From: Paenibacillus pabuli
GTDB lineage: Bacteria; Bacillota; Bacilli; Paenibacillales; Paenibacillaceae
DNA length: 64,000 nucleotides
Direction: 5' to 3'
Assembly: GCF_039831995.1 (NCBI RefSeq)
Contig: NZ_JBDOIO010000005.1
Location: 124,001 to 188,000 of the forward strand
Positions 11,573-57,276 of this stretch are shown one piece after another. Within the stretch, counting starts at the first letter, position 1; every line of letters starts with the position of its first letter. The position numbers and the translations under genes were made by a program. The notes beneath the pieces are model-generated. The model saw only the letters and a program-made list of their open reading frames with translations, searched no databases and was not told where the DNA came from.

Positions 11573-11604
11573 CAGAAAAAAGAAGGCTGATAATCAGCCT
11601 TCTT
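11573..11604 (-). terminator. Rho-independent terminator after ctpB
   Basis: On the minus strand AAGAAGGCTGA-tta-TCAGCCTTCTT is followed by TTTTT: an 11-bp perfect stem with a 3-base loop and U-tract. Confidence 0.9.
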
Positions 11605-11624
11605 AATGGCTTCGACACGACGGT

Positions 11625-13076
11625 CTAAATATCCTTCGAGACATTTTCGATCGCGCGCTTCAGCTGTGCATCATATTGAGGATTGGCAATGCGTTCAATC
11701 AGAGCCGCTTCCAGTGATTCAGCGGTTTTCTCGTCGATCTCGCCTGTGGCCTCAATGCCTTTCTGCTTCTGGAATGCTTTGACCGCTTCTTCCGTCTTCT
11801 GGTCATAGTATCCATCTACACGATCCGGCTTGAAGTCAAGTCCTCTCAGCATCGTCTGCGCACTTTTCACATCCGTGCTATTGCTGTCATATTTCAAAGG
11901 TAATTTCTCTTTGTTGATCGGTGCCACCGAGAAGTAATCCGGCTGGTTCACCGCAATATCCGGTTTAATGCCTTTTTCATGAATCCAGTCTCCATTCGGA
12001 GTCAGCCATTTCGCAATGGTGATTTTCAGCAGGCTGCCGTCACCCATTTGCTTATCATAACTCGTCTGTACCGTACCTTTACCAAAGGAGTTTTCGCCAA
12101 CCAGCGTTGCGCCTGCAGACTGTTGCAATGCACCGGCCAAAATCTCCGACGCACTCGCGCTTCCTTTGTTCATCAATACCGTGATCGGATACGACTTGCT
12201 GGAACCATTCGACTTGCTTTGCTCACGTTTGCCGTTTTTGTCCTCGACCTGCACAATTACTTTGCCTTTTGGAACAAACTGCTCGGCAATATCGATAACC
12301 ACTTGCAGTACACCGCCTGGATCATTACGAACGTCAATGACCAGACCCTTCATGTTCTGTTTCTCCAGATTCGCCAGCTCTTCCTTGAAGCGTTCTCCGG
12401 TGTTCAGCGAGAATTGGGTGATGGTAATGACACCTACACCGTTATCCTCCATGTGGGCGTATACGGTCTCCAGATCAATATCATCACGCACAATGGTAAA
12501 TTCAATCAATTCCGTAGAACCGGCACGTTTGACCTGTACCTTGGCTTCACTACCCTTTGGACCTCTGATTTTGTTAACAGCCTTGTTTAATTCAAGGCCT
12601 TGCAGGGATTCTCCATTCACAGACATGATCATGTCTTTGGCCCGAATACCCGCTTTCTCGGCAGGTGATCCTTTGATCGGAGAAACAACAACGACGTTTC
12701 CATCCTGCGAGGACACCTCGGCCCCGATTCCGGTAAAGGATCCTTCAATGGATTCCTCGAACTGGGCAGCCGTTTCTTGACCCATGTAGTTGGAATATGG
12801 ATCTCCAAGGGATTCCATCATACCGTTTATCGCACCATCGATCAGTTTGGTCTGGTCCACATCTTTATAGTAGTTGCTTGAGATCAAATCCATTGCGGTT
12901 TCAATCTTCTTCAAATCGTTCTTCTGCTGCGTATTGCCGGTTACACTGGCCAGCAGGCCTTCACCCGAAGTGGTCTGATTGGCCATGCCGGGATAACTCA
13001 TCAGTACCAGCGTAAGCAGGCTCCCTCCAAGAAGGGCTACAATGGCAAGCAGCAGCGCCGATCTTTTCTTCATCAT
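11625..13076 (-). CDS. ctpB: Carboxy-terminal processing protease (S41), CtpB-like
   Basis: Secreted, membrane-anchored serine protease of 483 residues with one N-terminal signal-anchor helix. A PDZ domain (about residues 90-175, VVVVSPIKGSPAEKAGIRAK) precedes the S41 catalytic domain, with nucleophile Ser in MNKGSASASEIL and general-base Lys in NSFGKGTVQTSY. A C-terminal peptidoglycan-binding repeat follows (LRGLDFKPDRVDGYYDQKTE, about residues 395-455). In B. subtilis CtpB cleaves SpoIVFA in sigma-K activation. The track-style GTG start at 13088 abuts AAAGGCG; ATG at 13076 has GGTGAG seven bases upstream and is preferred. Downstream is its terminator, upstream the M23 protein. Confidence 0.88.
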   Translation of the reverse strand: MMKKRSALLLAIVALLGGSLLTLVLMSYPGMANQTTSGEGLLASVTGNTQQKNDLKKIETAMDLISSNYYKDVDQTKLIDGAINGMMESLGDPYSNYMGQETAAQFEESIEGSFTGIGAEVSSQDGNVVVVSPIKGSPAEKAGIRAKDMIMSVNGESLQGLELNKAVNKIRGPKGSEAKVQVKRAGSTELIEFTIVRDDIDLETVYAHMEDNGVGVITITQFSLNTGERFKEELANLEKQNMKGLVIDVRNDPGGVLQVVIDIAEQFVPKGKVIVQVEDKNGKREQSKSNGSSKSYPITVLMNKGSASASEILAGALQQSAGATLVGENSFGKGTVQTSYDKQMGDGSLLKITIAKWLTPNGDWIHEKGIKPDIAVNQPDYFSVAPINKEKLPLKYDSNSTDVKSAQTMLRGLDFKPDRVDGYYDQKTEEAVKAFQKQKGIEATGEIDEKTAESLEAALIERIANPQYDAQLKRAIENVSKDI

Positions 13077-13212
13077 CCGTTTGCTCACCGCCTTTAGTTT
13101 TGAAGCGTGTCAGATTCCATTGCTTTCCTGAATCCATTCCCTGAACATGCCAGCTTAGTATATGTCTAGCTTGTACGGAATATGTTTATTCCATTCCCTT
13201 GCGGTCTATCCA

Positions 13213-14490
13213 TTATAGATAATTCATCGGGTTCACTGCCGTACCATTTTCCCGAACTTCAAAGTGCAAGTGAGGTCCTGTTGAATTTCCTGTATTGCCG
13301 GATTCGGCAATAATATCGCCTTTGCTGACCGTATCTCCCTTGCTCACCTTAAACCCGCCTTCACGCAGGTGACCATACAATGTCCACAGACCGCCACCAT
13401 GGTCTACGATAACGGTATAGCCGTAACCACTGTACCACTCCGCCATGATGACGATACCGCCCGATGCCGCGTGAACCGATGTACCCGTTGGAACAGCGAA
13501 ATCAACACCATTATGCATTTTTCCCACTTCCCCCGTAATAGGGTGTGTACGGCGTCCAAATGGAGAAGAAATACGTCCACCGGATACAGGTTTGGAGAAA
13601 ATGCCATTCCCCGCTGAATACGTAGTCTCATTGCTGCTTGTGCTGACTTTGGTCGGTGCCTTCGCTGCCGCTGCCGCACGAGCGGCTGCAGCTGCTTTGG
13701 CTTTGGCAGCAGCTGCTGCCTGCTGCTCACGCAGTTTGTTTTTCTCTTGCAGCAGGGTTGAACGCTTGGTGGCGATCTGAATCAACACATCTTCCTGCTC
13801 CTGAGTCAGCTCTTCCGATTCTTCAATTTTAGCATCATAGGAAGCCAGAAGCACTTGCTTCTCCTGTTCCTTCTCATTCAACTGGGCTTTGCGTTGTTTC
13901 TTTTGTGCATAAAGGCTCTTGGCTTCCGCATACTGCTTGTCCAATTCGGCCTTTTTGTCCACAACGAGCTGCTTGTCCTTTTTGTGCTCATCCAGCAAAT
14001 GTTGGTCCTGATCCACAATGGTTTTCAGCGAGTCTGCACGGGTCAAGAAATCGGAAAAACTTGTTGAAGACAACAACACATCCAGATAGGATACTGCTCC
14101 ATCCGTATACATCAGACGTACACGGGATTCAAGCAGTTTCTCCCTTGCAACGATACGCTCCTCTGCAGCCTGCAAATCCTTTTTCGTCGTACGAAGATTT
14201 TCTTCTGTATTCTCAATCTCCAGAGATACGTTCGCCAGTTCATCACTGACAACATTGATCTGCTCCATGACAACCTTCAGATAAGCATTGGTTTTGTTCT
14301 TGTAGTGCTGAGCTTCCTTCTTATTGGCAGCTGCCTTTTTCTGTTCCTGTTTGGCCGCAGCCGCCTTGCCCTCCAGCTGCTTAATCTGTTGATCTATGTC
14401 GCTAATGCTACTCTTGGCATATCCGTCCGAAGGTTGAAGCGTCAAACCGGCCAATAACGTAAAGGCCAGCAGCGAAGCTGTTTTTTTCAA
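13213..14490 (-). CDS. Secreted coiled-coil M23 peptidoglycan endopeptidase, probable FtsEX effector
   Basis: Exported murein hydrolase or activator of about 425 residues. A signal peptide (KKTASLLAFTLLAGLTLQPS) is followed by a long coiled coil (residues 30-270), an Ala/Lys-rich linker and a C-terminal M23 domain with zinc ligands in HNGVDFAVPTG and TGPHLHFEVRENG. The coiled-coil-plus-M23 layout is that of EnvC/PcsB-like partners of FtsEX, and the gene lies directly downstream of ftsX, so FtsEX-gated activity outside the membrane is the likely role. Start taken as TTG at 14490 because GGGGG lies nine bases upstream; another TTG at 14529 lacks a ribosome site. Confidence 0.8.
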   Translation of the reverse strand: MKKTASLLAFTLLAGLTLQPSDGYAKSSISDIDQQIKQLEGKAAAAKQEQKKAAANKKEAQHYKNKTNAYLKVVMEQINVVSDELANVSLEIENTEENLRTTKKDLQAAEERIVAREKLLESRVRLMYTDGAVSYLDVLLSSTSFSDFLTRADSLKTIVDQDQHLLDEHKKDKQLVVDKKAELDKQYAEAKSLYAQKKQRKAQLNEKEQEKQVLLASYDAKIEESEELTQEQEDVLIQIATKRSTLLQEKNKLREQQAAAAAKAKAAAAARAAAAAKAPTKVSTSSNETTYSAGNGIFSKPVSGGRISSPFGRRTHPITGEVGKMHNGVDFAVPTGTSVHAASGGIVIMAEWYSGYGYTVIVDHGGGLWTLYGHLREGGFKVSKGDTVSKGDIIAESGNTGNSTGPHLHFEVRENGTAVNPMNYL

Positions 14491-42419: not shown

Positions 42420-42617
42420 TTATAATTTGATTACGTTAGCGGCTTGAGGTCCACGCGCGCCTTCGACGATGTCGAATTCTACGGATTGACCTTCTTCCAA
42501 AGTTTTGAAGCCTTCGGATTGAATTGCGGAGAAGTGTACGAATACGTCGCCGCCATCTTCAGTCTCAATGAAACCGTAACCTTTTTCTGCGTTGAACCAT
42601 TTTACTTTACCTTGCAT
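42420..42617 (-). CDS. Cold-shock protein (CspA/CspB family)
   Basis: Single-strand nucleic-acid-binding chaperone, 65 residues, one OB fold. RNP1 is KGYGFIE (residue 12) and RNP2 is VFVHFSAI. Start [13 protein letters not shown] follows AAGGGA by ten bases. It has its own strong promoter with a 60-base leader and its own terminator. It sits at the edge of the sugar island, so it marks the boundary with core genes. Which Csp paralog it is cannot be told from one sequence. Confidence 0.95.
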
Positions 42618-42841: not shown

Positions 42842-44836
42842 TTAATTTGTTGTTTTCTTCGCGATAATTTGTAACTGCCCAAGGTACTCAGGTCCTGATG
42901 ATATTTTAAGTATTTCGAAACCATGCATCTTCATGAGAATCCTAAGTGAGATATGATCATATAAAATAACATGAAGCGGTGGATCTAAATGTCTCCACTT
43001 GCTCCCTGAATGAAAACTTGCACTGGAATTGACATTTGGTGTGTTCGCAACAAACAGCCCGTCTTTTTTCAGAACACGTTTTATATTCTTCATAAAAGAA
43101 TGTGGAGTGGGAATATGCTCTAATACATCCCACGCTGTAACCACATCAAAACTTTCATTCTCAAATATATCATCATTTATTTCACCAGTAACAACATTTA
43201 ATCCAAACTTCTTTCTTCCTTCATTTGCTGCACTTTCAGAAATTTCAATTCCTTGAACGGACCAATAACGAAATTGAGCTTCTGCCAAGAAGTGTCCTGT
43301 AGAACATCCAATATCGAGCAATGTTCCCCTAGGAAAACGAGTCTGGTCGGCAAAAGATTCTACAAGATCCATGCGCATCTCATAACTACGTAACATTCCT
43401 GAAGTTACATTTGAGATTTCGGTATCCCATCCCATTTTTTTTCGATGGTCTTCTGAATAATAAATATTTTGATAGAACCAATTTAAGTACTCTTCAGTGG
43501 GTTGTGGGTCCATAAACACTCCGCCACAAGCTGTGCAACGATGTAAATTGGTCTCAAATTGTCTATGCCCTAGAATTTTATATAATTGGGTATAATCATT
43601 ACCATCACAGATTGGACAACTTTCCATTGGTTCCTTATACTGTTCTTTTTGATCATGATCACTTGATTTTTTTTGTGCGATGTCCCTTGGAGAATCATAC
43701 GAACTTATGACATTGAGAATCTCAGCAGCTCTATCTTTATACGTGTGTTCCTCGAGTATATGATTATTTAGTTCTGCGACTAACTCATCTCTTTCTTTTT
43801 TATGCGTCAAGTAGTAGTCCGCTTTTATGAGTAAATCATTTAGGTCTTGAAAAGTTATCGCTTCCCACACCGCTGGAAAAACACGCTCCATATCCTTTTT
43901 ATAATCACTTAATACAAAACCTCTAGAAGCAAACACATCAAACACCCGATTGTTCACCGAGGTTTCTAATTGAAGCGAAGAAATATTCAAGTTAACAGCA
44001 TGCTTTTGGTAAGTCATTGAAAGTTCGTTGTAGGGAACTGCCGTATGGACAATAGTACTCTCGTTTAGTTTTTCTTGAGTACCATAAACATGCATATCCA
44101 CCCCGCTGAGACTCCCTAATACATGTTTTCTGAAAATAGAACTTCCTCGGGAATGAATGGGATAATAGATGTTTTTCCAGAAAACTTCAGTGTGGTCTTT
44201 ATAAAGAATATGAATAGCCTGAAATTTCGGATTAGAAAGTGCATCCATACATACATCAAAAAGAGGAACGCGAAAGTTATTAATCTTTTGTTTTACAACA
44301 TAATCAATAAACTGTTGTTCAAGGTGCTGCAAATTTGTTGAAAGTTGTACAGACTTTATACTACCAACAAAAGCAAGTTCATTCTCTTGGGTAACAATGT
44401 TTGTATCCACATAAAACTTATTTGGGTTAGTAGCTAGCATAATTGGATAAATATTGGAGACGCCTGCTTCACGCATAAATTTTTCACAGTAATTATCCCA
44501 TACAAAATGATAATAAAATGATGGGAATTCTTTGAACTCATTCAAAAACTGATCGTTCAGGCTGAATAGAGGGTTGTCATAATGCAGGCAAATTACAGGA
44601 ATTCCTTCCTCTCTCCATAGAAAACGTCCATTTCTATCCCTAGTAATTCCTACGTAACCGTAAGCTAATATAAATTGTGGCTTAAAGTCAAGAATAGCTT
44701 GATAGTCTCCAATTCCAAAATCCTGATCTATGTTCACAAGCAAAACATCGTGTCCTAGTTCTTTGAAAGCTTGAAAGTAATCATCTGTGACATGAGGAGC
44801 AATGATCCCTTTCCCTTTTAAAATTGCTATTTTCAA
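42842..44836 (-). CDS. CgeB-like glycosyltransferase fused to SAM methyltransferase
   Basis: 664 residues with two enzymes in one chain. Residues 1-380 resemble CgeB/DUF3880 glycosyltransferases (MKIAILKGKGIIAPHVTDDY, LCLHYDNPLFSLND-type region, and C-terminal NRVFDVFASRGFVLSDY). Residues about 400-440 carry a zinc ribbon (CPICDGNDY, HRCTACGGVFMDPQP) and 500-664 a class I methyltransferase with SAM motif LLDIGCSTGHFLAEA and VVTAWDVLEHIPTP. It probably transfers and methylates a sugar on flagellin, inferred from location. TTG start at 44836 has GGGGAG eight bases upstream. Last gene of the island. Confidence 0.75.
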   Translation of the reverse strand: MKIAILKGKGIIAPHVTDDYFQAFKELGHDVLLVNIDQDFGIGDYQAILDFKPQFILAYGYVGITRDRNGRFLWREEGIPVICLHYDNPLFSLNDQFLNEFKEFPSFYYHFVWDNYCEKFMREAGVSNIYPIMLATNPNKFYVDTNIVTQENELAFVGSIKSVQLSTNLQHLEQQFIDYVVKQKINNFRVPLFDVCMDALSNPKFQAIHILYKDHTEVFWKNIYYPIHSRGSSIFRKHVLGSLSGVDMHVYGTQEKLNESTIVHTAVPYNELSMTYQKHAVNLNISSLQLETSVNNRVFDVFASRGFVLSDYKKDMERVFPAVWEAITFQDLNDLLIKADYYLTHKKERDELVAELNNHILEEHTYKDRAAEILNVISSYDSPRDIAQKKSSDHDQKEQYKEPMESCPICDGNDYTQLYKILGHRQFETNLHRCTACGGVFMDPQPTEEYLNWFYQNIYYSEDHRKKMGWDTEISNVTSGMLRSYEMRMDLVESFADQTRFPRGTLLDIGCSTGHFLAEAQFRYWSVQGIEISESAANEGRKKFGLNVVTGEINDDIFENESFDVVTAWDVLEHIPTPHSFMKNIKRVLKKDGLFVANTPNVNSSASFHSGSKWRHLDPPLHVILYDHISLRILMKMHGFEILKISSGPEYLGQLQIIAKKTTN

Positions 44837-44855
44837 TTAAATCTCTCCCCACTCA

Positions 44856-45803
44856 TTATCGAAGACCACCTTGTGCAATCCAATGCCTTGTACGAGCAAT
44901 TCCTTCTTCAAGAGACACCTCCGGTTGCCAATCCAGCAATTGTTTAGCTTTTGCTGAATTGCATAGAAGCTTTTCAATTTCACTTTGAGGATGAATATGC
45001 TCCACATGTTTAATTCGTTCAGAATCTTTCACAATAAGTTTGGCTAGGTCGTTAACGGAAATATCACTGCCAAGTCCTGCATTTACAATCTCCCCGTTCA
45101 CTGCATCATTGAATCCTGCCTCTGCAACAAACCGGGCACAATCCTCAACATAAAGTAAATCCCGTGTCTGCGTACCCGAGCCATAAATATTCAATGTCTT
45201 ACCATCCAGTTCATTTTTTATGAAAATTGCGACTACGCCGCCCTCTCCACCGGTTTTTTGAAAAGGACCATATGTATTAAATGGTCTGATCACTACCGTT
45301 GGTAAATCATAAGCATGGTAATAGGAGAGCACCATATTTTCGGCTCCTATCTTAGCTCCCGCATAAGGTGAGGCTGGCTTAGTCGGATGATGCTCGTCAA
45401 TTCCCTTCTCATTCACGCAACGATCATACACCATACATGTGCTCATAAAAACTACCTTTGTGTTAAACCTTTTACATTGTTCCAAAATAAAAAATGTACC
45501 AACGGTATCATTATTAAAAGTAGTCCGAGGATCATCTATAGAATCCTGTACATTAATGGAAGCACCTAGATGATAGCATATAGAAAATTTATGATTAGCA
45601 AACAACTCAGAAAGTAAATTCTCGTCAAGGATTGTTCCTTTAACGAAAGCTTTTAAACCAGGGTGATCTCGAAATTCCGCAATGTTTGATTCGCGTCCAT
45701 TTGATAAATCATCCAAGATCCAAAGATTATGACCTTCATCTAGCAAACGCTTGGCAACCCAACGCCCAATAAATCCAGCTCCACCTGTTAGTAAAATATT
45801 CAC
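44856..45803 (-). CDS. NAD-dependent sugar epimerase/dehydratase
   Basis: Extended SDR enzyme of 315 residues acting on a nucleotide-sugar. Rossmann motif TGGAGFIGRWVAKRL is at residue 6; the catalytic set is Ser in VFMSTCMVY and the YxxxK of SPYAGAKIGAE; IRPFNTYGP is a typical UDP-glucose-4-epimerase-like segment. GTG at 45803 follows AGGAGG by seven bases. Placed between the GNAT gene (100-base gap) and the fusion gene. Substrate unknown. Confidence 0.8.
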   Translation of the reverse strand: MNILLTGGAGFIGRWVAKRLLDEGHNLWILDDLSNGRESNIAEFRDHPGLKAFVKGTILDENLLSELFANHKFSICYHLGASINVQDSIDDPRTTFNNDTVGTFFILEQCKRFNTKVVFMSTCMVYDRCVNEKGIDEHHPTKPASPYAGAKIGAENMVLSYYHAYDLPTVVIRPFNTYGPFQKTGGEGGVVAIFIKNELDGKTLNIYGSGTQTRDLLYVEDCARFVAEAGFNDAVNGEIVNAGLGSDISVNDLAKLIVKDSERIKHVEHIHPQSEIEKLLCNSAKAKQLLDWQPEVSLEEGIARTRHWIAQGGLR

Positions 45804-45903
45804 TTAACTTCCTCCTACTTATTGGAAATCACTCTACCCGTCAGGAAATTAGTCCTTTAGGACTCAAGTAGCCAAAATACAAAAAAATAATATATCTCCA
45901 AAT

Positions 45904-46431
45904 TTAATGTGAATCACTTGTTAACAAACTATAAAATAAAGAGTCATTCCACTTTCCTTTTGACCAGTGCGTTTGCCTATGACGTCCATCCAATTGGAAA
46001 CCGATATTCTCTAACATCTCTTTTTTCATCACATCAAACTCATAGATTTCACACCATAGACGATGTAAGTTCAATTCTGAAAATGCATAATTAATAAGAA
46101 TCTCGGCAGCATCTCGTGCAAAATGTTGATCAATGTAAGTATTATTAGAACCAATATAAATGGAGTAATCAGCACTCCGATTAATCCAATCGATATAACA
46201 GATCCCACAGGCTCCTAATAATAGTTGTGTTTCAAGTTCCTCAATGGCGAACATAATCGTATTCGGATCACGAATTACCTTACTTTCAAACCACTGATCT
46301 TGATTGTAATGATTCAATTCCCGATACTCTCGAAAATATTGCCTTAAATCGGGATTATTTCTCCATTCCAAAAGTTGAGCAAGATCTTCTTTCTCTATGG
46401 CACGTAAACCAACACTTTTCCCTCTAAGCAT
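45904..46431 (-). CDS. GNAT N-acetyltransferase, PseH/LegH-like
   Basis: 175 residues of the RimJ/RimL-type GNAT fold. Visible are LEWRNNPDLRQYFREYR near the N-terminus, a strand-rich middle (ADYSIYIGSNNTYIDQHFAR) and INYAFSELNLHRLWCEIYEF, typical of sugar N-acetyltransferases. The ATG at 46431 lies one base after the synthase stop, with GGTGG seven bases upstream; the longer frame starting at 46464 overlaps that gene. It may acetylate an amino-sugar precursor, but no aminotransferase accompanies it. Confidence 0.75.
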   Translation of the reverse strand: MLRGKSVGLRAIEKEDLAQLLEWRNNPDLRQYFREYRELNHYNQDQWFESKVIRDPNTIMFAIEELETQLLLGACGICYIDWINRSADYSIYIGSNNTYIDQHFARDAAEILINYAFSELNLHRLWCEIYEFDVMKKEMLENIGFQLDGRHRQTHWSKGKWNDSLFYSLLTSDSH

Positions 46432-46432
46432 C

Positions 46433-47512
46433 TTATTCCACCAAATCTTGCATATATAATGCATCGCCTTTTACTTTTTGAACAGTTAGGCGTCTGCCTA
46501 AAATCCCATTTTTATAATGAGGCTCAATTGAGTCTTCTGGAGCAGGACGCAGTGCTTCTACATCGTCCTCCCGAATAACATCTCCAATTTCCAAGTCTCT
46601 TGTTAACCGTAAGCATCTTCTCTGAATAATAACTGTATTCTTCTCATTGTCTTCTACCTTCTTGACACCATCACCTAGTGATGCTTCAAGCTCTCTTGCT
46701 CTATCAACCATTTCTCTCCAAGTCGTGGGGTTCATTGAAAACTTATGATCTGGTCCAACCCTGTAGTTGTCATCCGTAAAATGCTTTTCTATAACCTTGG
46801 CCCCTAAAGCAATAGCACCAAGAACAGTGGCATGACCAGCAGTGTGATCTGATAATCCTAATATCATTTGCGGGTACTTTAGCGCGTAGGATTGAAGAAC
46901 CTTTAGGTTTATATACTTGAAATTTTCAAGTTCCCCTGTATAATTCGTATTGCACTGAAGAAGTACAAGTTGACGTGTATATTTCAAGGCCGCTTCTACA
47001 GCCCTCTCTACATCTTCCAACGATGAAGCACCAGTAGCCAGTATCACTGGTTTATCTTGCTTGGAAATCTCCTCAATAAATTCAGTCCACGTAATATCAC
47101 CTGATCCAATCTTATATGCGGGAATGTATCGATCCAACATCATGATGGCTTCATAGTCATAAGGTGTTGTCATAAAGTCAATCTCGGCTTCCTTCGCAGT
47201 CAGTGCAAGCTCTTCATTCCAGTCACGATTGCATTCATATTGCTTATAAGTGTCAAATACACTCTTTTGCCATTCTGATTGATGACTCAAAGCACTTTTC
47301 AACTCACGGAATCCATAGTCACTGACTATATTTTCTGCCTTAAAGTGTTGGAACTTAGCGGCATCCGCACCAGCTTCTTTTGCCAACCATATTAGTTCCT
47401 TTGCTTTCATGAGATCCCCGTCATGATTAGCTGCAATATCTGCAATGAAATATGCTGGTGATCCCGCATCAATCGTTCTACCATTAATTATAATTGAAGT
47501 ATCATATCTCAA
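46433..47512 (-). CDS. NeuB-family nonulosonate synthase
   Basis: Condenses phosphoenolpyruvate with a hexose derivative to a nine-carbon sialic-acid-like sugar. 359 residues: a TIM-barrel NeuB domain (AYFIADIAANHDGDLMKAKE, GADAAKFQHFKAENI, KIGSGDITW, GLSDHTAGHATVLGAIALGA and VIEKHFT) and a C-terminal SAF/antifreeze-like domain (about 290-355). Its start overlaps the RmlD-like gene stop by four bases. Whether the product is legionaminic, pseudaminic or another acid cannot be told from this gene. Confidence 0.87.
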   Translation of the reverse strand: MRYDTSIIINGRTIDAGSPAYFIADIAANHDGDLMKAKELIWLAKEAGADAAKFQHFKAENIVSDYGFRELKSALSHQSEWQKSVFDTYKQYECNRDWNEELALTAKEAEIDFMTTPYDYEAIMMLDRYIPAYKIGSGDITWTEFIEEISKQDKPVILATGASSLEDVERAVEAALKYTRQLVLLQCNTNYTGELENFKYINLKVLQSYALKYPQMILGLSDHTAGHATVLGAIALGAKVIEKHFTDDNYRVGPDHKFSMNPTTWREMVDRARELEASLGDGVKKVEDNEKNTVIIQRRCLRLTRDLEIGDVIREDDVEALRPAPEDSIEPHYKNGILGRRLTVQKVKGDALYMQDLVE

Positions 47513-48384
47513 GAATGTTCAACCTCCAAGTAATCCGAATAGAGCTGATCAATAACCTGCTCCATATCCGGCATTAAATAGCCTAAAAAATGTTCCGCCT
47601 TCATTACATTAAGTCCCATACTAGTTGATCTTTGAAGCTGATCTTCGGAAAAATAACTAATCACACTGGTATTCTGGGAACTGAATTCAAACTTGCGTGC
47701 CAAACTTAATATAAAATCTTTCTTACTTACCGACTCACGTGAAGCAATATTAAAAATCCCCTTTGCATTCCTTGTTATTAGGTCATACAAAATTTCGGAT
47801 AATTGCGATACGGTAATACTTGAACAATAAACATTATCAAAAAGCTGCATATTTTCCTTATTCTTCAGCGAATTTAAGGCCCATTCTATAAAAGTAGGCC
47901 TTGTCTCTATCCCGCGGAACCCAACTATATTGGTTCTAATCACCAAACTATTCTCAGCAGTAAGGGCGAAGCATTCCCCCGCAAATTTTGTCTTGGCATA
48001 CTCATTCAGTAGTGATACTTGTGACGATTCATCGTGAAGAATATTTTCTCGGTCTGGATAGTAATGGTCTGTAGAAATCTGTACAAGATATTTATTATTC
48101 AATCTGACATAATTAGCAAAAACAGCCACAGGTCTTGCATTTAACATGTAAGCATCTGCAGGGTTTTTCTCGCAAAACTGCAGGTTCACTATTGCTGCTG
48201 CATTAATAATTAAATCTGGTTCCAGCTTATATAAAACATCATTTAAACCTTCTTCGTCTAAAAGATCCATATTTATGTCAGCATTTTTTCTGGCTAGTGT
48301 AAATAATTTAATATCACATTTGCTGAATTTTTTAACTATAGCTTGACCAAGCATCCCCGTTGAACCGCATAGAAGTACTCTCAA
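47509..48384 (-). CDS. RmlD-like NAD(P)-dependent sugar reductase
   Basis: SDR-extended protein of 291 residues resembling dTDP-4-dehydrorhamnose reductase. The dinucleotide site is LLCGSTGMLGQAIVKKF, with INAAAIVNLQFCEKNP, VQISTDHYYPDRE and the YxxxK of NEYAKTKFAGE. A TTG at 48384 lies eight bases after GGAGG and is taken as the start; the ATG at 48423 precedes the ribosome site. Coupled to the synthase. It would supply a reduction step not found in standard legionaminic or pseudaminic pathways. Confidence 0.78.
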   Translation of the reverse strand: MRVLLCGSTGMLGQAIVKKFSKCDIKLFTLARKNADINMDLLDEEGLNDVLYKLEPDLIINAAAIVNLQFCEKNPADAYMLNARPVAVFANYVRLNNKYLVQISTDHYYPDRENILHDESSQVSLLNEYAKTKFAGECFALTAENSLVIRTNIVGFRGIETRPTFIEWALNSLKNKENMQLFDNVYCSSITVSQLSEILYDLITRNAKGIFNIASRESVSKKDFILSLARKFEFSSQNTSVISYFSEDQLQRSTSMGLNVMKAEHFLGYLMPDMEQVIDQLYSDYLEVEHS

Positions 48385-48433
48385 ATTGAGAACCTCCAAT
48401 TTATTTAATATCAAAATTAGCAACCTTTGCCCA

Positions 48434-49114
48434 TTATTTATTTTCCGTACTTAAATATTCAATCGCTCTCTCCAATGTCACATTTTCTGGACCAATCTTA
48501 TTAAATAAATGATACATTTGAACATATTGCTCTAAAGTGTCCACTGTAACACTAATATCCGGTCTTTGAAATAGTCGATCATTCGGTTTAATCTTTTTCA
48601 TCTTGAAAGATGAGTTCTGAATAATGTATGGTGTGACATGCTCTTGATCATATGGTAATATTGCCTCTTTATACGCTATGCTTAAAGCCCTTTTTGTAAT
48701 AACTTCTGAACCCGACCCAACTGGAATGGATTCAAACCGCACATAGTCCAAATCTGATTTTGTGAGCAGTTTTACGCCTTGGTCAATAAAACGCGGCTCT
48801 GTCAATGGATTATCTGCAGTTACTCGCACCACAATATCTGCTTCTGCTTTCTCAGCCGTCTGATGATACCTTTCTAATACATTGTCGAGACTCCCACGAA
48901 AACAATAAACCCCCATACTTCGGGCTTGATACTCTAATAAGTCATCTTCCGCTCGATCAGATGTAGCAATCCAAATTTCATCAAGTTCAACGGATAATTG
49001 AATTCGTTCTATAACTCGTTGAATTAAAGTTTTACCGCATAAGTCCTTCATTACTTTACCAGGTAATCTAGTGGAAGAAAGCCTCGCTTGAACAATACCT
49101 ACTGTCTTTACCAT
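48434..49114 (-). CDS. SpsF-type cytidylyltransferase
   Basis: Nucleotidyltransferase of 226 residues activating a sugar with CTP. The signature VQARLSSTRLPGKVMKDL is at residue 8, with IATSDRAEDDLLEYQARSMG and VVRVTADNPLTEP, as in SpsF and acylneuraminate cytidylyltransferases. In this setting it most likely forms the CMP-activated nonulosonate. The ATG at 49114 overlaps the upstream SDR gene by seven bases, with GGATGG just before it; 49123 is an alternative. A 49-base gap precedes the next gene. Confidence 0.8.
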   Translation of the reverse strand: MVKTVGIVQARLSSTRLPGKVMKDLCGKTLIQRVIERIQLSVELDEIWIATSDRAEDDLLEYQARSMGVYCFRGSLDNVLERYHQTAEKAEADIVVRVTADNPLTEPRFIDQGVKLLTKSDLDYVRFESIPVGSGSEVITKRALSIAYKEAILPYDQEHVTPYIIQNSSFKMKKIKPNDRLFQRPDISVTVDTLEQYVQMYHLFNKIGPENVTLERAIEYLSTENK

Positions 49115-49896
49115 GCTGTCCATCCGCCATCTACTGCTATATTTTGGCCAGTTATGAAACTAGAAGCTTCCGAAGCTAATAATAGTAGCACACCTTTTAA
49201 TTCTTCTGGTTTCCCGATTCTCCCAAGAGCTGTTTTCTCACTGAGTTTCTTTATAAACTCTTGATTTTGCTGTACTACTTCCTTTGGAAATGGTCCTGGA
49301 GAAATAGAATTACAGCGAATGCCCTTACTTCCATAATGACATGCAATATACCTGCTTAGTTGAATAATGGCTGCCTTTGATGCTCCGTAATTAGCAGGGT
49401 TATTTTGACCTGAGTCACCATAAATCTCTGGATTTGGAGACACCATCCCATACATTGAAGCAATGTTTATAATATTCCCCGTTTGAGCATCTAGCATATG
49501 GGGGAGAGCAGCTCGAATGCAACGATAATAAGCATTTATGTTACCATCTATACCTTTGAGCCAATCTTCTTCCGTATAGTTTTCAAGTTGTGAAGCCACA
49601 CCTGTACTTGCATTATTTATTAGAATATCAATTTTTTTGAATCTCTCAATTACACTTGAAAAAAAATAATTAACCGAATTTGAATCTAATATGTCGAGGA
49701 TCCCCCACCAGTGATTTCCTCCGTATTCAACATTCAATTTATTGGCGAGGTTTTTGCATTTGGCTCCATCTCTGCTAGCGATGACAACAGTTGCCCCATA
49801 AGCAGCTAAGATCTCACTCAAAGCACTACCTAGATGTCCAGCTCCGCCCGTTACTACAGCCACTTTTCCAGTAAGATCAAATAGATTATCCTTCAT
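49108..49896 (-). CDS. Classical SDR oxidoreductase
   Basis: 262-residue NAD(P)-dependent reductase. The TGxxxGxG motif is VTGGAGHLGSALSE, the structural NNAS is present (ILINNASTGVA), the catalytic Ser is in NIASMYGMVSPNP and the YxxxK is NYGASKAAI; the C-terminus FITGQNIAVDGGWTAW is typical. It lies four bases downstream of the aldo/keto reductase gene. The substrate is presumably a keto-sugar of this pathway, from context only. Confidence 0.82.
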   Translation of the reverse strand: MKDNLFDLTGKVAVVTGGAGHLGSALSEILAAYGATVVIASRDGAKCKNLANKLNVEYGGNHWWGILDILDSNSVNYFFSSVIERFKKIDILINNASTGVASQLENYTEEDWLKGIDGNINAYYRCIRAALPHMLDAQTGNIINIASMYGMVSPNPEIYGDSGQNNPANYGASKAAIIQLSRYIACHYGSKGIRCNSISPGPFPKEVVQQNQEFIKKLSEKTALGRIGKPEELKGVLLLLASEASSFITGQNIAVDGGWTAW

Positions 49897-49900
49897 AATA

Positions 49901-50800
49901 TCATGCTCTCCATTTGCTTGGATTTAAAATACACTCTGGTACCCTTGAAAATAATTGCATAGCTTCCTCTGATACCACGGAAGAAAGAGGTGGAAGTTCC
50001 AACATACGTACATTATCCTCCAGTTGTTCCAATGTCTCACAACCAATGACCATATAATCAATGTGTCTAAGATCACGAATATATATGAATGCCAACTCAG
50101 TAATAGAGTAATGATTTCTTTCAGCGAGTAGCCTCAAATTACTTAAATGAATTTTTGCTGCTGACATATATTCAGGGAGCTGGTCTGGAGACAAAAGTAA
50201 TAGCCCTTGAAGGTAAATACTTCTTGCATGAATACTAATCTTACGCGTCTTTAACCGTTCAAGCTGCCCGGATGTAATTAATCTCTGATCAAGAATATTG
50301 ATTGGAATTTGAATGACATCCATATCCTCCAATTCTAGAAATGTTTCGACATCCTCTGGAGTATATATAGATACACCTATTTTTTCCACATGACCCTGTG
50401 CCTTGAGTTCACAGAGAACTTGTACCACTTTGCGATCATGAGAAAGCATATTGTCAGGTGAATGTAGCAAGCAGCAATCTAATCTCAATACACCCAAGCG
50501 AAGCTTCGATTCCTCGATATACTGCATCATACTTTTTCGTATGTCTTGCAATTCTACTTCATTTCTTTCTGGAATAAGCGGTATCTTGGTTATGATTACA
50601 GGAGTATTTGTAATCCCATACCTTGCTTTCCCCAGAATGTACTCACTGTCTCCATAACCAGGGGCAGTATCAATTACATGTATACCTTTAGTCATTGCCG
50701 TTCTGACTAACCTAATTGCTTCAGCATAATCTGGCTGTCCGCTTATATTAGCAATCCCATATGGCATTCCAAGCTGTGCCGTCCCTAATGCCAATTTCAT
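49901..50800 (-). CDS. Aldo/keto reductase
   Basis: NADPH-dependent reductase of 299 residues with the AKR barrel. Catalytic residues are visible: Asp and Tyr of HVIDTAPGYGDSEYILGKA, Lys of PVIITKIP and His of CCLLHSPDN. ATG at 50800 follows GGAG by nine bases; 50818 is an alternative three bases after the dehydratase stop. In this cluster it may reduce the 4-keto group made by the dehydratase. Confidence 0.82.
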   Translation of the reverse strand: MKLALGTAQLGMPYGIANISGQPDYAEAIRLVRTAMTKGIHVIDTAPGYGDSEYILGKARYGITNTPVIITKIPLIPERNEVELQDIRKSMMQYIEESKLRLGVLRLDCCLLHSPDNMLSHDRKVVQVLCELKAQGHVEKIGVSIYTPEDVETFLELEDMDVIQIPINILDQRLITSGQLERLKTRKISIHARSIYLQGLLLLSPDQLPEYMSAAKIHLSNLRLLAERNHYSITELAFIYIRDLRHIDYMVIGCETLEQLEDNVRMLELPPLSSVVSEEAMQLFSRVPECILNPSKWRA

Positions 50801-50821
50801 CACATTCAACTCCAGCATTGA

Positions 50822-51814
50822 TTAATCCAGCAGTTTTTCCTTTTGTATCCATTCTGCAACAAGAGACTTAGAAATAGGTTTCATATCAGGAAGAGCTGTA
50901 TGAGTATAATCATTTTTTTTATTATACAGCGAAGGGATGACATACATATCCTCATGTTCTTCAGCGATATACTGTTCATCTGTCGTCATGAGTTCTTCAT
51001 ATCTTTTCTCTCCAGGACGAAGACCAATTATTGACAATTCAATTTTTTGTCGTATGTGATACCGTTCCGAAATCTGGTCTATTAATACTTCTGCAAGATC
51101 CCCTATACGTATTACAGGCATTTTAAGTACAAAAACTTCCCCTCCACTAGCTCTTTCATTCGCTTTAAGAATTAAATCTATCGCTTGCAAAGGCGTCATC
51201 ATGTATCTCAACATATCTAAGTCTGTGACTGTAATTTTCCCTTGCTCAAGAATTTGTTTCTTAAATAGAGGAATTACAGACCCTCGGGATCCCATAACAT
51301 TCCCAAACCTCACCGAAGAGAATACTGTGGTTTTTGATCCCTTTTGATACTCTGCAGCTGAAATTAATCTCTCTGCTGTAAGCTTTGTCGCTCCATACGT
51401 GTTGGTTGGTGATATAGCCTTATCTGTACTAGTGAATAAAACTTTAGTAACGTTATTCTCCAAAGCTGCCTGTATTACGTTTTGTGTGCCTATTACATTG
51501 GTCTGTACTGCTTCAAAAGGATTATACTCACATGAAGGAACATGCTTCATCGCTGCAAGATGAAAAACATAATCGATACCTTCCATGGCTCTGGAAAGAC
51601 GCTTTTGATCTCTTACATCTCCAATCAAAAATCGTAATTTCCGAGAGTAAGCTTGAAACTCTATTGCCATCTCATATTGTTTGTGTTCATCTCGGCTGAA
51701 AATTCTGATGACATCCGGTTCATCCTCAATTAAACGACGCACCAAATGATTACCAATTGTCCCTGTTCCACCTATGATTAGGATCTTTTTCCCTTGATAA
51801 TTATAGTCTGGCAT
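50822..51814 (-). CDS. PseB/LegB/CapD-like nucleotide-sugar 4,6-dehydratase
   Basis: Inverting or retaining UDP-HexNAc dehydratase of 330 residues. The cofactor site is ILIIGGTGTIGNHLVRRL; the catalytic triad equivalent is LFTSTDKAISPTNTYGATK (Asp-Lys replacing Tyr as in the PseB/FlaA1 group); MKHVPSCEYNP and SVRFGNVMGSRGSVIP are conserved in that group. It makes a 4-keto-6-deoxy sugar, the first committed step in nonulosonate synthesis. It overlaps the Maf-like gene by 14 bases. Confidence 0.87.
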   Translation of the reverse strand: MPDYNYQGKKILIIGGTGTIGNHLVRRLIEDEPDVIRIFSRDEHKQYEMAIEFQAYSRKLRFLIGDVRDQKRLSRAMEGIDYVFHLAAMKHVPSCEYNPFEAVQTNVIGTQNVIQAALENNVTKVLFTSTDKAISPTNTYGATKLTAERLISAAEYQKGSKTTVFSSVRFGNVMGSRGSVIPLFKKQILEQGKITVTDLDMLRYMMTPLQAIDLILKANERASGGEVFVLKMPVIRIGDLAEVLIDQISERYHIRQKIELSIIGLRPGEKRYEELMTTDEQYIAEEHEDMYVIPSLYNKKNDYTHTALPDMKPISKSLVAEWIQKEKLLD

Positions 51815-53609
51815 TGAAGCTCCTCTCTGGTTGTAAACCTTCCATTCTCTCTATCGACTCACTTAACACCTCTGTTAAAAAAGAAGTCTGTCCAAGAATC
51901 TGATGTAGCAGTTCTCCCAAATGCTCTGCGATTAAATCAGATTTACGAATAATACTTTTCTCAGTAATAATACTTGGAAGTTCCCGGTCAAATCGGCTGA
52001 TCTCAGCTGGGAGCAAGGTTTCATAAAGCGGATTAAACCAATCCTTATTTACGACTCCCCCCCATTTCTGCTCGATCATCTCTAAGCTATTTTGGCATTT
52101 TTTAGGCTTAGTACGGCTTAACTCCCTGATTTTTTTAATCAATTTTAAAATTTGGTCTATTTCAATCAATAGTTCGGATATTTCTTCTTTTGTCCGAATC
52201 ATTTTTGCTTTTACCCTTTCCATCTGGACGGGATTTACGATTGAGGTTTTCACTTGATCCAATAGATTTACAATTACACTATTATCCACCTGTTCTTTTT
52301 TTACGATCTCAAATACATCCTCTACCGGTTTCCATGCAGAACCTTCTATATGGGCACCATTGTGAGTCAAGTTAATAAATTCAATTTTAGGAAGAACAGT
52401 AATTAGATTTTCAATCCTATCTTTCATTTGCAGGAAGCCTGCAGTTGTTCGGTTATGCTCTCCATTAACATTGACAACAGTGTGCTCAGCTTGTCTGATC
52501 ACCTTATCAATATAGCTTCTATCCCCATGATTAATCCCCTCAGCGTAAAACTGTTCTCCAGGGAAAGACAAATCCTGTCCCATCATAATAATACGCGTAC
52601 ATCCCAGCCAAGCGGCCGCTTGGATTGCTGTTCCGGCAACAGTGGGATTTGGACGTAAAATCATATCATCTTTCTTTATATCCATAAAGTAACTCGTCAC
52701 TTCATCGTTATTCATTACTCCATAGCAAAGCCCTTCCTCTTTGAAATCTGAGACGCCGTAATAAGCAGAAGAAGTGAACAAAGTTGGAGTTTGTTTCGCT
52801 AGTTCACTAGAGAAAATTTTTGAATTTACCTCTCCTCCATCCATTATAACTGCAAGATGAGGTTGGATTCCTTTCTTTACCAATGCTTGTATGCTTGAGC
52901 CTGCTGAAATAATAATCGCATGCTCCCTCAACTTCTCTAGCCACTGAATGTCCTTTTCCAAGGAAGGTCCTGATGATACAATAATTGCTGTAGTTCCTTT
53001 AAGTTTCCCAATTAATTGATTGAGAGAAGGTATTTTCAACATCGTTGGTATTTGAAATAAACTATTTCGTATCCAGTCGTGACGAAAAAGATTTCGTACA
53101 TTTTGGTTGGACTCAAAAATTTTTTTATACTCCAAATAATTTGTCTTTGTAGAATGCAGGACATCAATTTGGTTCTCGAGGTAATAGCGAGAAGCTACAA
53201 ACGCCATTTCATCATGAATATGAGTAGACATAATCGAAAATAACTTATTTAACTGTTTATTCCCAATTGAAATAGCATAAATATTGGGATGTTCAAGCAC
53301 AAATGTGATATCCATATGATGCGTAGCATTTATAAACGATTCTTCGTCAGGCTCATACACAAAGAAAATACGGTCCGGATATAATTCAAGCAAATCACTT
53401 AATCCTAATCCTTGGCCAAACCCGTAAACAAAAACGGACTTTAAAGTACCAACTGCTCCCTTAACCGCAGCCAGCCACTCATGATCCTTTTCTAATGATT
53501 CTGTTAGTCTAAATTCTCCTTTTACAGATCCTTTTTGGACAAAATCGCCTTCTAAAACGTGTGGGAAACGCTTTTTAATTACAGCTAAATTCCGTTCGTA
53601 GTCCTGCAT
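51801..53609 (-). CDS. Maf/DUF115 flagellin-modification protein
   Basis: 602-residue motility-accessory-factor protein, proposed to transfer nonulosonate sugars onto flagellin. The DUF115 (6-hydroxymethylpterin pyrophosphokinase MptE-like) domain is centred at about 210-400, with TTAIIVSSGPSLEKDIQWLE, VIMDGGEVNSKIF, PNPTVAGTAIQAAAWLGC and IIMMGQDLSFPGEQFYAEG. ATG at 53609 has GGTGG eight bases upstream. First gene of the island, after the flagellar terminator at 53684; a sigma-D-like -10 lies upstream. Transferase activity is inferred from the family. Confidence 0.8.
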   Translation of the reverse strand: MQDYERNLAVIKKRFPHVLEGDFVQKGSVKGEFRLTESLEKDHEWLAAVKGAVGTLKSVFVYGFGQGLGLSDLLELYPDRIFFVYEPDEESFINATHHMDITFVLEHPNIYAISIGNKQLNKLFSIMSTHIHDEMAFVASRYYLENQIDVLHSTKTNYLEYKKIFESNQNVRNLFRHDWIRNSLFQIPTMLKIPSLNQLIGKLKGTTAIIVSSGPSLEKDIQWLEKLREHAIIISAGSSIQALVKKGIQPHLAVIMDGGEVNSKIFSSELAKQTPTLFTSSAYYGVSDFKEEGLCYGVMNNDEVTSYFMDIKKDDMILRPNPTVAGTAIQAAAWLGCTRIIMMGQDLSFPGEQFYAEGINHGDRSYIDKVIRQAEHTVVNVNGEHNRTTAGFLQMKDRIENLITVLPKIEFINLTHNGAHIEGSAWKPVEDVFEIVKKEQVDNSVIVNLLDQVKTSIVNPVQMERVKAKMIRTKEEISELLIEIDQILKLIKKIRELSRTKPKKCQNSLEMIEQKWGGVVNKDWFNPLYETLLPAEISRFDRELPSIITEKSIIRKSDLIAEHLGELLHQILGQTSFLTEVLSESIERMEGLQPERSFNARL

Positions 53610-53647
53610 GATAACAACCACCATTCATATTATGACTTCTATTTACA

Positions 53648-56508: not shown

Positions 56509-57276
56509 TTAACGAAGCAAGGACAATACGCCTTGTGGTGCAGAATTTGCTTGAGCAAGCATGGATTGGGAAGCTTGCAGCAAGATGTTGTTTTTGGACA
56601 GAGCAACCATCTCTTTAGCCATGTCTGTATCACGAATACGGGATTCGGACGCAGTCAAGTTTTCAACAGTTGTACCCAAGTTGTTGGAAGTGTACTCCAA
56701 ACGGTTTTGAACCGCACCCAGGTTAGAACGTTGTTTAGCAACTGCAGTAATTGCATCACTAACGCTAGAAAGGTTAGTCGCGGAAGACAATCCACTGAAA
56801 CCAGTTGTGGAGACACCAGTGATTGTGATTTGGAAGTTGCTATCATCAGCTTGGACAACAACATCATCTGTGATGTTGATTCCGTTGAAAGTAGTATTAG
56901 TCATGATTGCATCAATTTGCGATCCCAGCTGATTCAACTCGGCATTGATGTTGGATTTGTCGCTATCACTGTAAGTGCCGTTCTCTTTTTGTACATTCAG
57001 TTCTTTCATACGAGTCAGCATGGAGGATACTTCGTTCATTGCGCCCTCAGCTGTTTGTGCGAATGAGATACCGTCTTGAACGTTACGTTGAGCTTGCTCC
57101 AAACCACGGATTTGACCGCGCATTTTTTCGGAGATGGAGAGACCTGCAGCATCGTCAGCTGCACGGTTGATACGCAGACCGGAAGACAATTTCTCCATGT
57201 TTTTGCTTGCTGCTGTGTTGTTCAGACCCATATTACGGTGTGTGTTAACCGCTGGTAAGTTGTGATTGATAATCAT
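56509..57276 (-). CDS. hag: Flagellin
   Basis: Main filament subunit, 255 residues, at the short end of the family: D0/D1 domains with little of D2/D3. N-terminal landmarks are NTHRNMGLNNTAASKNMEKL and SSGLRINRAADDAAGLSISE; C-terminal ones are ESRIRDTDMAKEMV and QASQSMLAQANSAPQGVLSL. A Ser/Thr-rich stretch at about 155-185 (GVSTTGFSGLSSATNLSSV) is a plausible glycosylation target for the island. SD AGGGAGG overlaps a CsrA-type site. Single gene with sigma-D promoter and terminator. Confidence 0.97.
   Translation of the reverse strand: MIINHNLPAVNTHRNMGLNNTAASKNMEKLSSGLRINRAADDAAGLSISEKMRGQIRGLEQAQRNVQDGISFAQTAEGAMNEVSSMLTRMKELNVQKENGTYSDSDKSNINAELNQLGSQIDAIMTNTTFNGINITDDVVVQADDSNFQITITGVSTTGFSGLSSATNLSSVSDAITAVAKQRSNLGAVQNRLEYTSNNLGTTVENLTASESRIRDTDMAKEMVALSKNNILLQASQSMLAQANSAPQGVLSLLR

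Follow-up and report, generated by a model that had tools for sequence, protein, structure and literature searches.

A flagellar gene island of Paenibacillus pabuli that may encode a variant CMP-nonulosonate pathway with an RmlD-type reductase in place of PseC

The usual basis for predicting sialic-acid-like sugars on flagella is that PseC or LegC occurs together with PseG or LegG. In the CMP-pseudaminic acid pathway of B. thuringiensis, Pen and Pal act first, making UDP-4-keto-6-deoxy-L-AltNAc, and are followed by an aminotransferase, an acetyltransferase, a hydrolase, a synthase and a CMP transferase. An island of ten genes in the window analyzed here (64,000 nucleotides of P. pabuli DNA) resembles that pathway in having Pen- and Pal-type first steps, a NeuB-family synthase and a CTP transferase. 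Unlike that pathway, the island contains neither an aminotransferase nor PseG, and it has an RmlD-type reductase, a GNAT-fold protein devoid of the P-loop and a NeuB of a separate clade. The legionaminic acid pathway of the B. subtilis sps genes shares UDP-linked precursors, SpsF and a NeuB-family protein (SpsE) with the island, but it serves the spore crust rather than flagella and, in the portion of the report available, SpsC, SpsD and SpsG were each required or strongly needed (PMC7439481). The sfmABCDE genes of Shewanella oneidensis are likewise a non-standard NeuB-based flagellin modification system, in which a short-chain reductase and a methyltransferase take part; however, they include a TPP enzyme and an ATP-grasp protein, the sugar carries two nitrogens (oxonium ion C11H19N2O6+) and the available part of that paper mentions no RmlD (PMC3765264). 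According to the accessible text of a third report, the O-antigen of F. nucleatum ATCC 25586 contains fusaminic acid, a mono-amino 3,5,9-trideoxy nonulosonate, together with L-6dAltNAc (PMC13014188). These match the product class (nitrogen at C5 only, 9-deoxy) and the intermediate predicted below, although the glycan is an O-antigen rather than flagellin and the configuration was assigned tentatively. Biosynthetic genes for fusaminic acid were not met in the accessible portions of the literature. No paper describing a nonulosonate pathway in which RmlD replaces PseC was found among titles and abstract openings, which is weak evidence of novelty as most subscription journals lay outside that coverage.

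The island (42842-53624) comprises ten ORFs, all in open frames on the minus strand, and a preliminary description had given their number and order correctly. It had also called the genes nearly all overlapping or within 50 bases, and the intergenic gaps indeed range from -32 to +100 nt, exceed 50 nt only at the GNAT-Pal junction and include a 16-nt overlap of the SpsF and SDR genes. The gene at 51801..53624 encodes a putative Maf-type flagellin nonulosonate transferase (MptE-like PF01973, 131 bits; PseD/Maf model NF050051, 112 bits, below the cut-off of 670), whereas that at 42842..44836 encodes an accessory glycosyltransferase-methyltransferase fusion (PF13524, 84 bits; PF13489, 87 bits). 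The fusion gene, whose product might methylate the sugar, is not part of the core: no relative is listed in clusters L020, L100, L101 and L102 and a weak one (71 bits) is found in L103. The island is more AT-rich than three flanking stretches, as had been claimed (G+C 37.7% versus 43.8-49.5%), but fliT, fliS and fliD are equally AT-rich (37.8-39.6%), and thus low G+C does not separate the island from its upstream neighbors. Direct repeats bracketing the island, a sign of mobile elements, were not found. A cold-shock-like ORF (named by eye) lies on the minus strand at 42420-42617, between the island and hpf.

The gene at 50822..51814, named CapD in the program listing, has as its closest PDB entry 6bwc (E 1.3e-110), which we take to be B. 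thuringiensis Pen, and would catalyze the first step. It had been called a PseB/LegB-like dehydratase; a dehydratase it appears to be, but as a relative of Pen that scores below the PseB (329 bits, cut-off 407.75) and LegB (96 bits, cut-off 475) models. The putative second enzyme, encoded at 44856..45803, had been labeled an epimerase, but its nearest relative is Pal (6bwl, E 7.1e-139; runner-up E 1.9e-45), and it too falls short of LegB (165 bits). Judged by these top PDB matches, the step that forms UDP-4-keto-6-deoxy-L-AltNAc, catalyzed by PseB or by Pen plus Pal, is present. The starting configuration is not certain because Pen with Pal is reported to yield both the AltNAc and the GlcNAc keto sugars (PMC7439481).

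Two SDR reductases had been described, of which the one at 49108..49896 stands while the one at 47509..48384 is better called RmlD-type (PF04321, 113 bits). Its likely start, given the sequence and homologue lengths, is a TTG at 48384 behind GGAGG, which yields a protein of 291 residues. The S/T-Y-K residues T118, Y142 and K146 are invariant in 14 of 14 sequences, and the structural model (pLDDT 92) has dTDP-4-dehydrorhamnose reductases as its best Foldseek matches. By profile score the protein is RmlD-like and is not a dTDP-rhamnose RmlD (TIGR01214, 120.7 bits versus the rmlD equivalog cut-off of 224.05). On our best reading, this enzyme would carry out a reduction at the 4-keto group, the site of amination by PseC.

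Neither LegC/PseC nor LegG/NeuC/PseG had been recognized in the island, and intact copies elsewhere, along with a standard acid on flagellin, had been named as what would refute a non-standard sugar. Homologs were sought across the host genome (completeness 100%), and none was found. A PF01041 profile search for PseC/LegC-type aminotransferases returned seven matches, all above the Pfam low cut-off of 19.8 bits (best 49 bits) and spanning only about 90-125 of 360 columns. Scanned singly, these were a homocysteine synthase, three cysteine desulfurase-family proteins, a class I-type aminotransferase (593 bits, slightly below its model's cut-off of 620) and two proteins (L006 and L010) without a match at E 1e-60, which look like Orn/Lys/Arg decarboxylases by eye; neither PseC nor LegC was among the seven. 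The best PseG score was 24 bits versus a cut-off of 153.55, and PseG was also below cut-off in all four sister genomes, while it exceeded it in two of 14 control genomes. The two PF02350 proteins of the genome scored 511 and 265 bits with the non-hydrolysing WecB model (cut-off 210) and only 73 and 69 bits with NeuC (cut-off 236), leaving no NeuC/LegG above cut-off. As both copies are of the WecB type, UDP release by a NeuC/LegG-type enzyme was dropped from consideration. On these scores the genome holds neither the legionaminic route (LegB, LegC and a hydrolysing LegG/NeuC), for which LegC and a NeuC over cut-off are missing, nor the N-acetylneuraminate route with its NeuC and NeuB equivalogs. 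With no recognizable LegC/PseC, LegG/NeuC or PseG in either island or genome, a standard 5,7-diamino acid is unlikely to be the product, in line with the preliminary description.

The NeuB-family synthase (46433..47512; PF03102, 239 bits) scored below both NeuB_NnaB (267.6 bits, cut-off 399.65) and PseI (228.1 bits, cut-off 340.25). In a NeuB tree whose bootstrap had not settled, it fell in a supported clade (100/100) that spans bacteria, archaea and phages and is separate from the NeuBs of PseC/PseG loci, and it is therefore not grouped with PseI. Databases name the synthases of this clade N-acetylneuraminate or legionaminate synthase. Of at least 545 confirmed relatives 80 were kept, and 30 of these carried a NeuB by profile. 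Excluding the island itself, RmlD was found in 26 of 31 loci with the island-type NeuB (within 250 nt in 25), PseG in none and a DegT-type gene in three, whereas 28 loci with another NeuB held RmlD once, PseG 22 times and PseC 27 times. Since L020 and L102 have the same cluster with identical NeuBs and several viral contigs nearly duplicate one another, the counts were also made non-redundant at 90%, giving RmlD 21/25, PseG 0/25 and DegT-type 3/25 for the island type versus RmlD 1/24, PseG 18/24 and PseC 23/24 for the other loci. The control loci were seeded by the aldo/keto reductase (AKR) and the island-type loci mostly by NeuB, which biases the AKR frequency, but RmlD and PseG were not seeds. 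RmlD was absent from a Maritalea plasmid (L104) and four viral contigs (L124, L135, L136 and L142). The DegT-type genes were in L045 (beside RmlD), L124 and L141, the last at a distance of 5.5 kb, close to another NeuB that is itself counted among the 28. GC-rich L163 stood outside these counts because crude ORF calling failed there; read by frames, it contains AKR, SpsF and dehydratase genes and, immediately upstream of NeuB, RmlD (163 bits), while PseG scores 14.7 bits.

The set of Maf, Pen, Pal, RmlD, NeuB, GNAT and SpsF returns in the sister clusters L100-L103, which lack PseC and PseG, and among 22 viral contigs with the island-type NeuB a dehydratase occurred in 19, RmlD in 18, a GNAT-like gene in 18 and PseG in none. 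For phages we rely on IMG/VR contigs, as NeuB matches in named phage records were limited to three, all below 33% identity. At E<=1e-100 the island-type NeuB is rare: 4/394 genomes of the family and 2/398 of the phylum (own genome included in both), 2/395 in another phylum and 1/63 in the class of genome G698, that one being G698 itself. The pathway had been called incomplete or novel. Its incompleteness is not supported, since other genera, another family of the phylum and phage contigs all contain this core, so that, judged from gene content, the gap looks like conserved design rather than a lost gene. Decay or partial deletion of a pseudaminic acid island would account for the two missing textbook genes and the AT-richness; with all ten frames open and the core kept in four sister clusters and phage contigs, we regard it as extremely improbable.

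The near one-for-one swap of RmlD and PseC between the two NeuB groups also bears on whether the island makes standard pseudaminic acid or its 8-epimer, with amination and UDP release supplied by unrecognized, unrelated enzymes elsewhere (an aminotransferase of class I or III, for instance) and with some other task for RmlD. We consider this unlikely, as PseC is already present in 11 of 11 loci with a class III gene (only L021 of the 28 loci lacks PseC), the island NeuB is below the PseI cut-off and the GNAT protein has no P-loop. A split into two sugars seems still more doubtful. Pen, Pal and RmlD would then make a UDP-6-deoxy-HexNAc used directly by the glycosyltransferase, and NeuB and SpsF an N-acetylneuraminate-like acid from ManNAc. 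L-6dAltNAc is a known glycan component in the accessible text of the F. nucleatum report (PMC13014188), and the NeuB is nearer the Neu5Ac synthase model than PseI, but no NeuC over cut-off exists genome-wide, and in 25 of 31 loci, phage contigs included, no more than 250 nt separate RmlD from the island-type NeuB.

The gene after NeuB (45904..46431) probably starts at 46431 rather than 46464, given the sequence and homologue lengths. Its product had been called a GNAT acetyltransferase, and the GNAT fold, like that of PseH, stands (PseH model, 64.3 bits versus a cut-off of 93.1). The acetyl-CoA P-loop, (Q/R)xxGx(G/A), has however been lost, being replaced by [YW]ID in the island copy and in 23 of 23 adjacent copies. 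This statement rests on the alignment (in which the L020 row ends early) and on [YW]ID, since a loose GxG/A pattern also matches 11 of the 23 outside the P-loop place. The protein may thus not be an acetyltransferase. A GNAT-fold gene was found in 23 of 31 island-type clusters and, at a loose threshold, in 15 of 28 other loci, which means that the gene by itself does not tell the two groups apart. The eight clusters missing it are L045, L055 (cut by a contig end), L104, L124, L132, L134, L142 and L164; a known hydrolase in its place would have favored a hydrolase role for the GNAT-like protein. In L164 a PF02350 protein, of the hydrolysing or the non-hydrolysing type, is encoded upstream of the dehydratase, and L104 has a protein annotated as HAD-IIIC phosphatase in which Pfam finds PF02522; in L124, L132, L134, L142 and L045 no known hydrolase was seen near NeuB among ORFs read by their first residues, mostly unscanned. 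No UDP-releasing hydrolase was recognized in the clusters with the island-type NeuB, and the proposed route is therefore not closed. A speculative solution, which we hold to be decidedly unlikely, is that the P-loop-less protein is the missing enzyme, its CoA site lost and its fold now serving as a UDP-sugar hydrolase. If so, the phage quartet of dehydratase, RmlD, NeuB and GNAT-like protein would supply dehydration, reduction, UDP release and PEP condensation, a compact mono-amino nonulosonate pathway in bacteria and phages and perhaps also in those archaea whose NeuB and RmlD proteins are in the same families. Alternatively, with the core acting as proposed, the GNAT-like protein could O-acylate the C4 hydroxyl (the future C7) from acyl-CoA to give an oxygen analogue of Pse5Ac7Ac. 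The stepwise parallel with PseB-PseC-PseH-PseI-PseF and the intact fold make this a possible though rather unlikely role; the [YW]ID in 23 of 23 copies at the site that binds the CoA pyrophosphate argues against CoA binding but does not strictly exclude it.

The remaining genes encode the AKR (49901..50818; PF00248), the SDR (49108..49896; adh_short_C2, PF13561), which adjoins AKR in L101 and L102, and an SpsF-type CTP_transf_3 cytidylyltransferase (48434..49123; PF02348, 134 bits). AKR residues D50, Y55, K78 and H119 are invariant in 24 sequences. Replacement of the aminotransferase by AKR plus SDR was rejected: among the matches listed, 27 AKR-seeded loci have another NeuB, and in 13 of them the SDR is present as well; 12 of these 13 have PseC and 10 both PseC and PseG. 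Moreover, two genomes with the full core (G384 and G698), searched genome-wide for AKR alone, gave no match at E<=1e-10. Of the extra reductases noted earlier, RmlD is a core member, whereas AKR and SDR look like an optional tailoring pair. In Acinetobacter baumannii EpaA and EpaB convert Pse to 8-epi-Pse (PMC12053666). Compared by description, AKR, SDR and SpsF resemble that pair in encoding CTP_transf_3, AKR and adh_short_C2 domains together, but the island has three separate genes where the Epa pair consists of an SDR and a fusion of CTP transferase with AKR. No clear Epa pair emerged when AKR and SDR were used as tblastn queries on phage records.

What was observed is the gene content, a conserved core, the distinct NeuB clade and the lack of the usual genes anywhere in the genome. 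We think it probable, though well short of certain, that the island encodes a functional, not decayed, variant CMP-nonulosonate pathway for flagellin in which RmlD stands in for PseC. Pen and Pal would convert UDP-GlcNAc to UDP-4-keto-6-deoxy-L-AltNAc, and reduction by the RmlD-type enzyme would leave a hydroxyl in place of the 4-keto group, so that UDP-6-deoxy-L-AltNAc or its C4 epimer results. Following UDP release, NeuB would condense the free sugar with PEP to a 5-acetamido-3,5,9-trideoxy-nonulosonate with a hydroxyl at C7, the class of compound to which fusaminic acid belongs. SpsF would make the CMP sugar, AKR and SDR would epimerize C8 in the manner of EpaA/EpaB acting on Pse (the oxidation-reduction being suggested by the enzyme classes) and Maf would transfer the sugar to flagellin. 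We infer the reactions of RmlD, NeuB, GNAT, AKR and SDR and all stereochemistry. The earlier suggestion of a de-aminated product agrees with this best reading at one position. A point against our reading is that 23 of the 31 island-type clusters include a GNAT-fold protein, whereas the predicted sugar has no amine at C7.

If this reading is right, the RmlD-NeuB pair would mark those genomes and phages that make a further class of nonulosonate, having one nitrogen. The island would then offer a testable gene set for fusaminic acid, a candidate enzyme family in the P-loop-less GNAT proteins and a clear mass prediction.

The preliminary description had proposed a ten-gene island, and this was confirmed as ten minus-strand ORFs at 42842-53624 of the window. 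These are transcribed in the order Maf, Pen (dehydratase), aldo/keto reductase (AKR), short-chain dehydrogenase (SDR), SpsF, RmlD, NeuB, GNAT-like, Pal, and glycosyltransferase-methyltransferase, with intergenic distances of -32 to +100 nt. The island is flanked by fliT on one side and by a cold-shock-like ORF adjoining hpf on the other. The claim that it is AT-rich stood (37.7% G+C) but does not set it apart from fliT, fliS, and fliD, which are about as low in G+C. No bracketing repeats were found around the island. The flagellin encoded at 56509-57276 has merely 255 residues, and three flagellin genes of this short kind lie in tandem at 10078-12864 of L100, one of four sister clusters with the same core (L100-L103).

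The closest solved structure to the dehydratase was 6bwc (E 1.3e-110), which is listed as CapD and which we take to be Pen of B. thuringiensis. The "epimerase" was closest to 6bwl, which is Pal (E 7.1e-139; runner-up 1.9e-45). In B. thuringiensis, according to PMC7439481, the PseB step is performed by Pen and Pal jointly. Because the two island proteins match this pair, which replaces PseB, the predicted opening chemistry of the island is of the pseudaminic acid type and not of the LegB type.

The genes for an aminotransferase (LegC/PseC) and a hydrolase (LegG/NeuC/PseG) that the island lacks might lie elsewhere, so the host genome (6.95 Mb, five contigs, 100% complete) was searched. PF01041 gave seven matches that were above the low Pfam cut-off but partial (best 49 bits, columns 23-145 of 360), whereas long matches of 291-433 bits were found in the four sister genomes. 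One-by-one scans placed three of the seven host proteins in the cysteine desulfurase family and identified one as a homocysteine synthase and one as a class I-type aminotransferase; the other two had no match at E 1e-60 and by eye resemble Orn/Lys/Arg decarboxylases. PseG was below the cut-off in all five genomes (host plus sisters) and above it in 2 of 14 control genomes, and both PF02350 proteins of the host were of the WecB type. Thus, the missing genes were not found elsewhere in the host genome, and the genome half of the refutation test set by the preliminary description, a search for intact copies, was therefore negative. Another locus of this genome (L014, 1417-3487) has a WecB-type epimerase adjoining a dehydratase that is CapE/FnlA-like by eye, and is perhaps a UDP-L-FucNAc-type cluster.

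Within the family, 394 genomes including the host's were searched with the window NeuB, and 4 gave a match at E<=1e-100; a search of 398 genomes across the phylum added one more (G698). All four sister clusters share Maf, Pen, Pal, RmlD, NeuB, GNAT, and SpsF, and neither PseC nor PseG was detected by profile in any of them. AKR and SDR were present only in L101 and L102; in L100 the contig end was reached beyond GNAT. Genomes G384, G698, and G969 gave no AKR match at E<=1e-10, and hence the core can do without the AKR. The reading of the pathway as incomplete is not supported by these data. At the gene level there is good support for a non-standard pathway, whose predicted product would have one amino group fewer. 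L103 also encodes a Pse-associated methylase between SpsF and RmlD (7702-8328; TIGR03587, 276 bits versus 112) and, downstream, a B12-binding radical SAM protein (11944-13341).

The comparison was extended to 80 AKR-seeded loci (of at least 545 confirmed relatives), 29 viral contig pieces seeded from a NeuB alignment, one plasmid stretch, and two loci from another phylum. Profiles were built from 29 PseC and 18 PseG sequences, and standard-cluster examples were confirmed (PseC 505 and 460 bits versus 423.5; PseG 317 versus 153.55). Loci were divided at 300 bits against a profile of the window NeuB. The 31 loci above this value contained dehydratase in 27, Pal in 5, RmlD in 26 (25 at <=250 nt), GNAT in 23, a DegT-type gene in 3, and PseG in none. 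Among the matches listed for the 28 loci below it, mostly AKR-seeded, the counts were dehydratase 22, Pal 14, PseC 27, PseG 22, RmlD 1, and GNAT 15. After clustering at 90%, RmlD, DegT-type, and PseG proteins accompanied 21, 3, and 0 of 25 window-type NeuBs versus 1, 23, and 18 of 24 other NeuBs (among the matches listed). In a maximum-likelihood tree, in which the bootstrap had not fully settled, the window-type NeuBs formed one branch (46 rows, length 1.09) with 100/100 support and the lone Lokiarchaeial row (L055) joined outside it at 96/89. The clade includes relatives named from Methanolobus, Methanomethylovorans, Methanoperedens, Desulfosporosinus, and Neisseriaceae. Records of several RmlD relatives equal in length those of a NeuB relative, which suggests NeuB-RmlD linkage there. 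On a Maritalea plasmid (L104, 11065-13876) a window-type NeuB, for which no RmlD partner was detected by profile, lies beside a DUF4910/DUF2172 protein and a MaoC-SDR fusion.

RmlD-type enzymes reduce the 4-keto group of 6-deoxy nucleotide sugars, as established for dTDP-4-dehydrorhamnose. The island protein falls below the rmlD equivalog cut-off (121 versus 224 bits); its model (pLDDT 92) best matches dTDP-4-dehydrorhamnose reductases, and T118, Y142, and K146 are kept in 14 of 14 sequences. Acting downstream of Pen and Pal, it would form UDP-6-deoxy-AltNAc or the C4 epimer, after which condensation with PEP by NeuB would yield a 5-acetamido-3,5,9-trideoxy nonulosonate. The mass computed for the predicted glycan residue, C11H17NO7, is 275.1005 Da (289.1162 when O-methylated, 317.1111 when O-acetylated), compared with 316.1271 for Pse5Ac7Ac or an isomer, 274.1165 for a diamino acid bearing one N-acetyl, and 291.0954 for Neu5Ac. 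PMC13014188 describes an O-antigen of F. nucleatum ATCC 25586 that contains L-6dAltNAc and fusaminic acid, a 5-acetimidoylamino-3,5,9-trideoxy acid. Compared by sugar structure alone, fusaminic acid is of the same chemical class as the predicted island sugar.

Among the 22 viral contigs with a window-type NeuB, dehydratase was present in 19, RmlD in 18, a GNAT-like ORF in 18 (<=193 nt after NeuB), DegT-type in 2, and PseG in none. RmlD directly precedes NeuB, the ORFs overlapping in 17 of 18 cases (185 nt apart in L143). Downstream of the GNAT-like gene, viral contig L129 encodes a PIG-L deacetylase and a formyltransferase (both in 11597-12960) and then a CTP_transf_3, and it also has a weak MptE-like protein; this suggests an N-formylated nonulosonate, perhaps with the C5 N-acetyl exchanged for formyl. 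Several other viral contigs have ORFs of like length after GNAT.

The island AKR keeps D50, Y55, K78, and H119, presumably the AKR tetrad, as do all 24 sequences compared. SDR was found in 13 of 27 AKR-seeded loci with other NeuB (among the matches listed), 10 of the 13 having both PseC and PseG. In A. baumannii, as PMC12053666 reports, 8-epi-Pse is made from Pse by EpaA (CTP_transf_3 plus AKR) together with EpaB (adh_short_C2), and the same three domains lie side by side in the window. Given these Epa-like domains, the kept AKR residues, and SDR in PseC/PseG loci, tailoring by AKR and SDR is by analogy likely to be C8 epimerisation. A CTP transferase-AKR fusion adjoining a dehydrogenase also appears in a Vibrionaceae and Moritella cluster survey (PMC7371886). 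Among the matches listed, 11 of the 27 AKR-seeded nonulosonate loci contain a class III aminotransferase cluster, whose one scanned member was glutamate-1-semialdehyde aminomutase-like; it occurs mostly without SDR (L025, L053, L064, L084, L087, L093, L029, L034, and L036) and with it only in L018 and L023. There, AKR oxidation followed by class III amination would perhaps add an extra amino group.

In Paenibacillus timonensis (L015) a cluster of PseC, Pal, AKR, SDR, and SpsF lies a few ORFs from hpf; PseG was not detected by profile in L015 or L019. At 7364-9978, L015 also has, with its nonulosonate genes, an epimerase-ATP-grasp fusion (scanned) and a HAD hydrolase, with relatives in L019 and L025. 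As the L015 cluster lies near hpf like the island of the window, this chromosomal slot seems to be one in which nonulosonate pathways are swapped.
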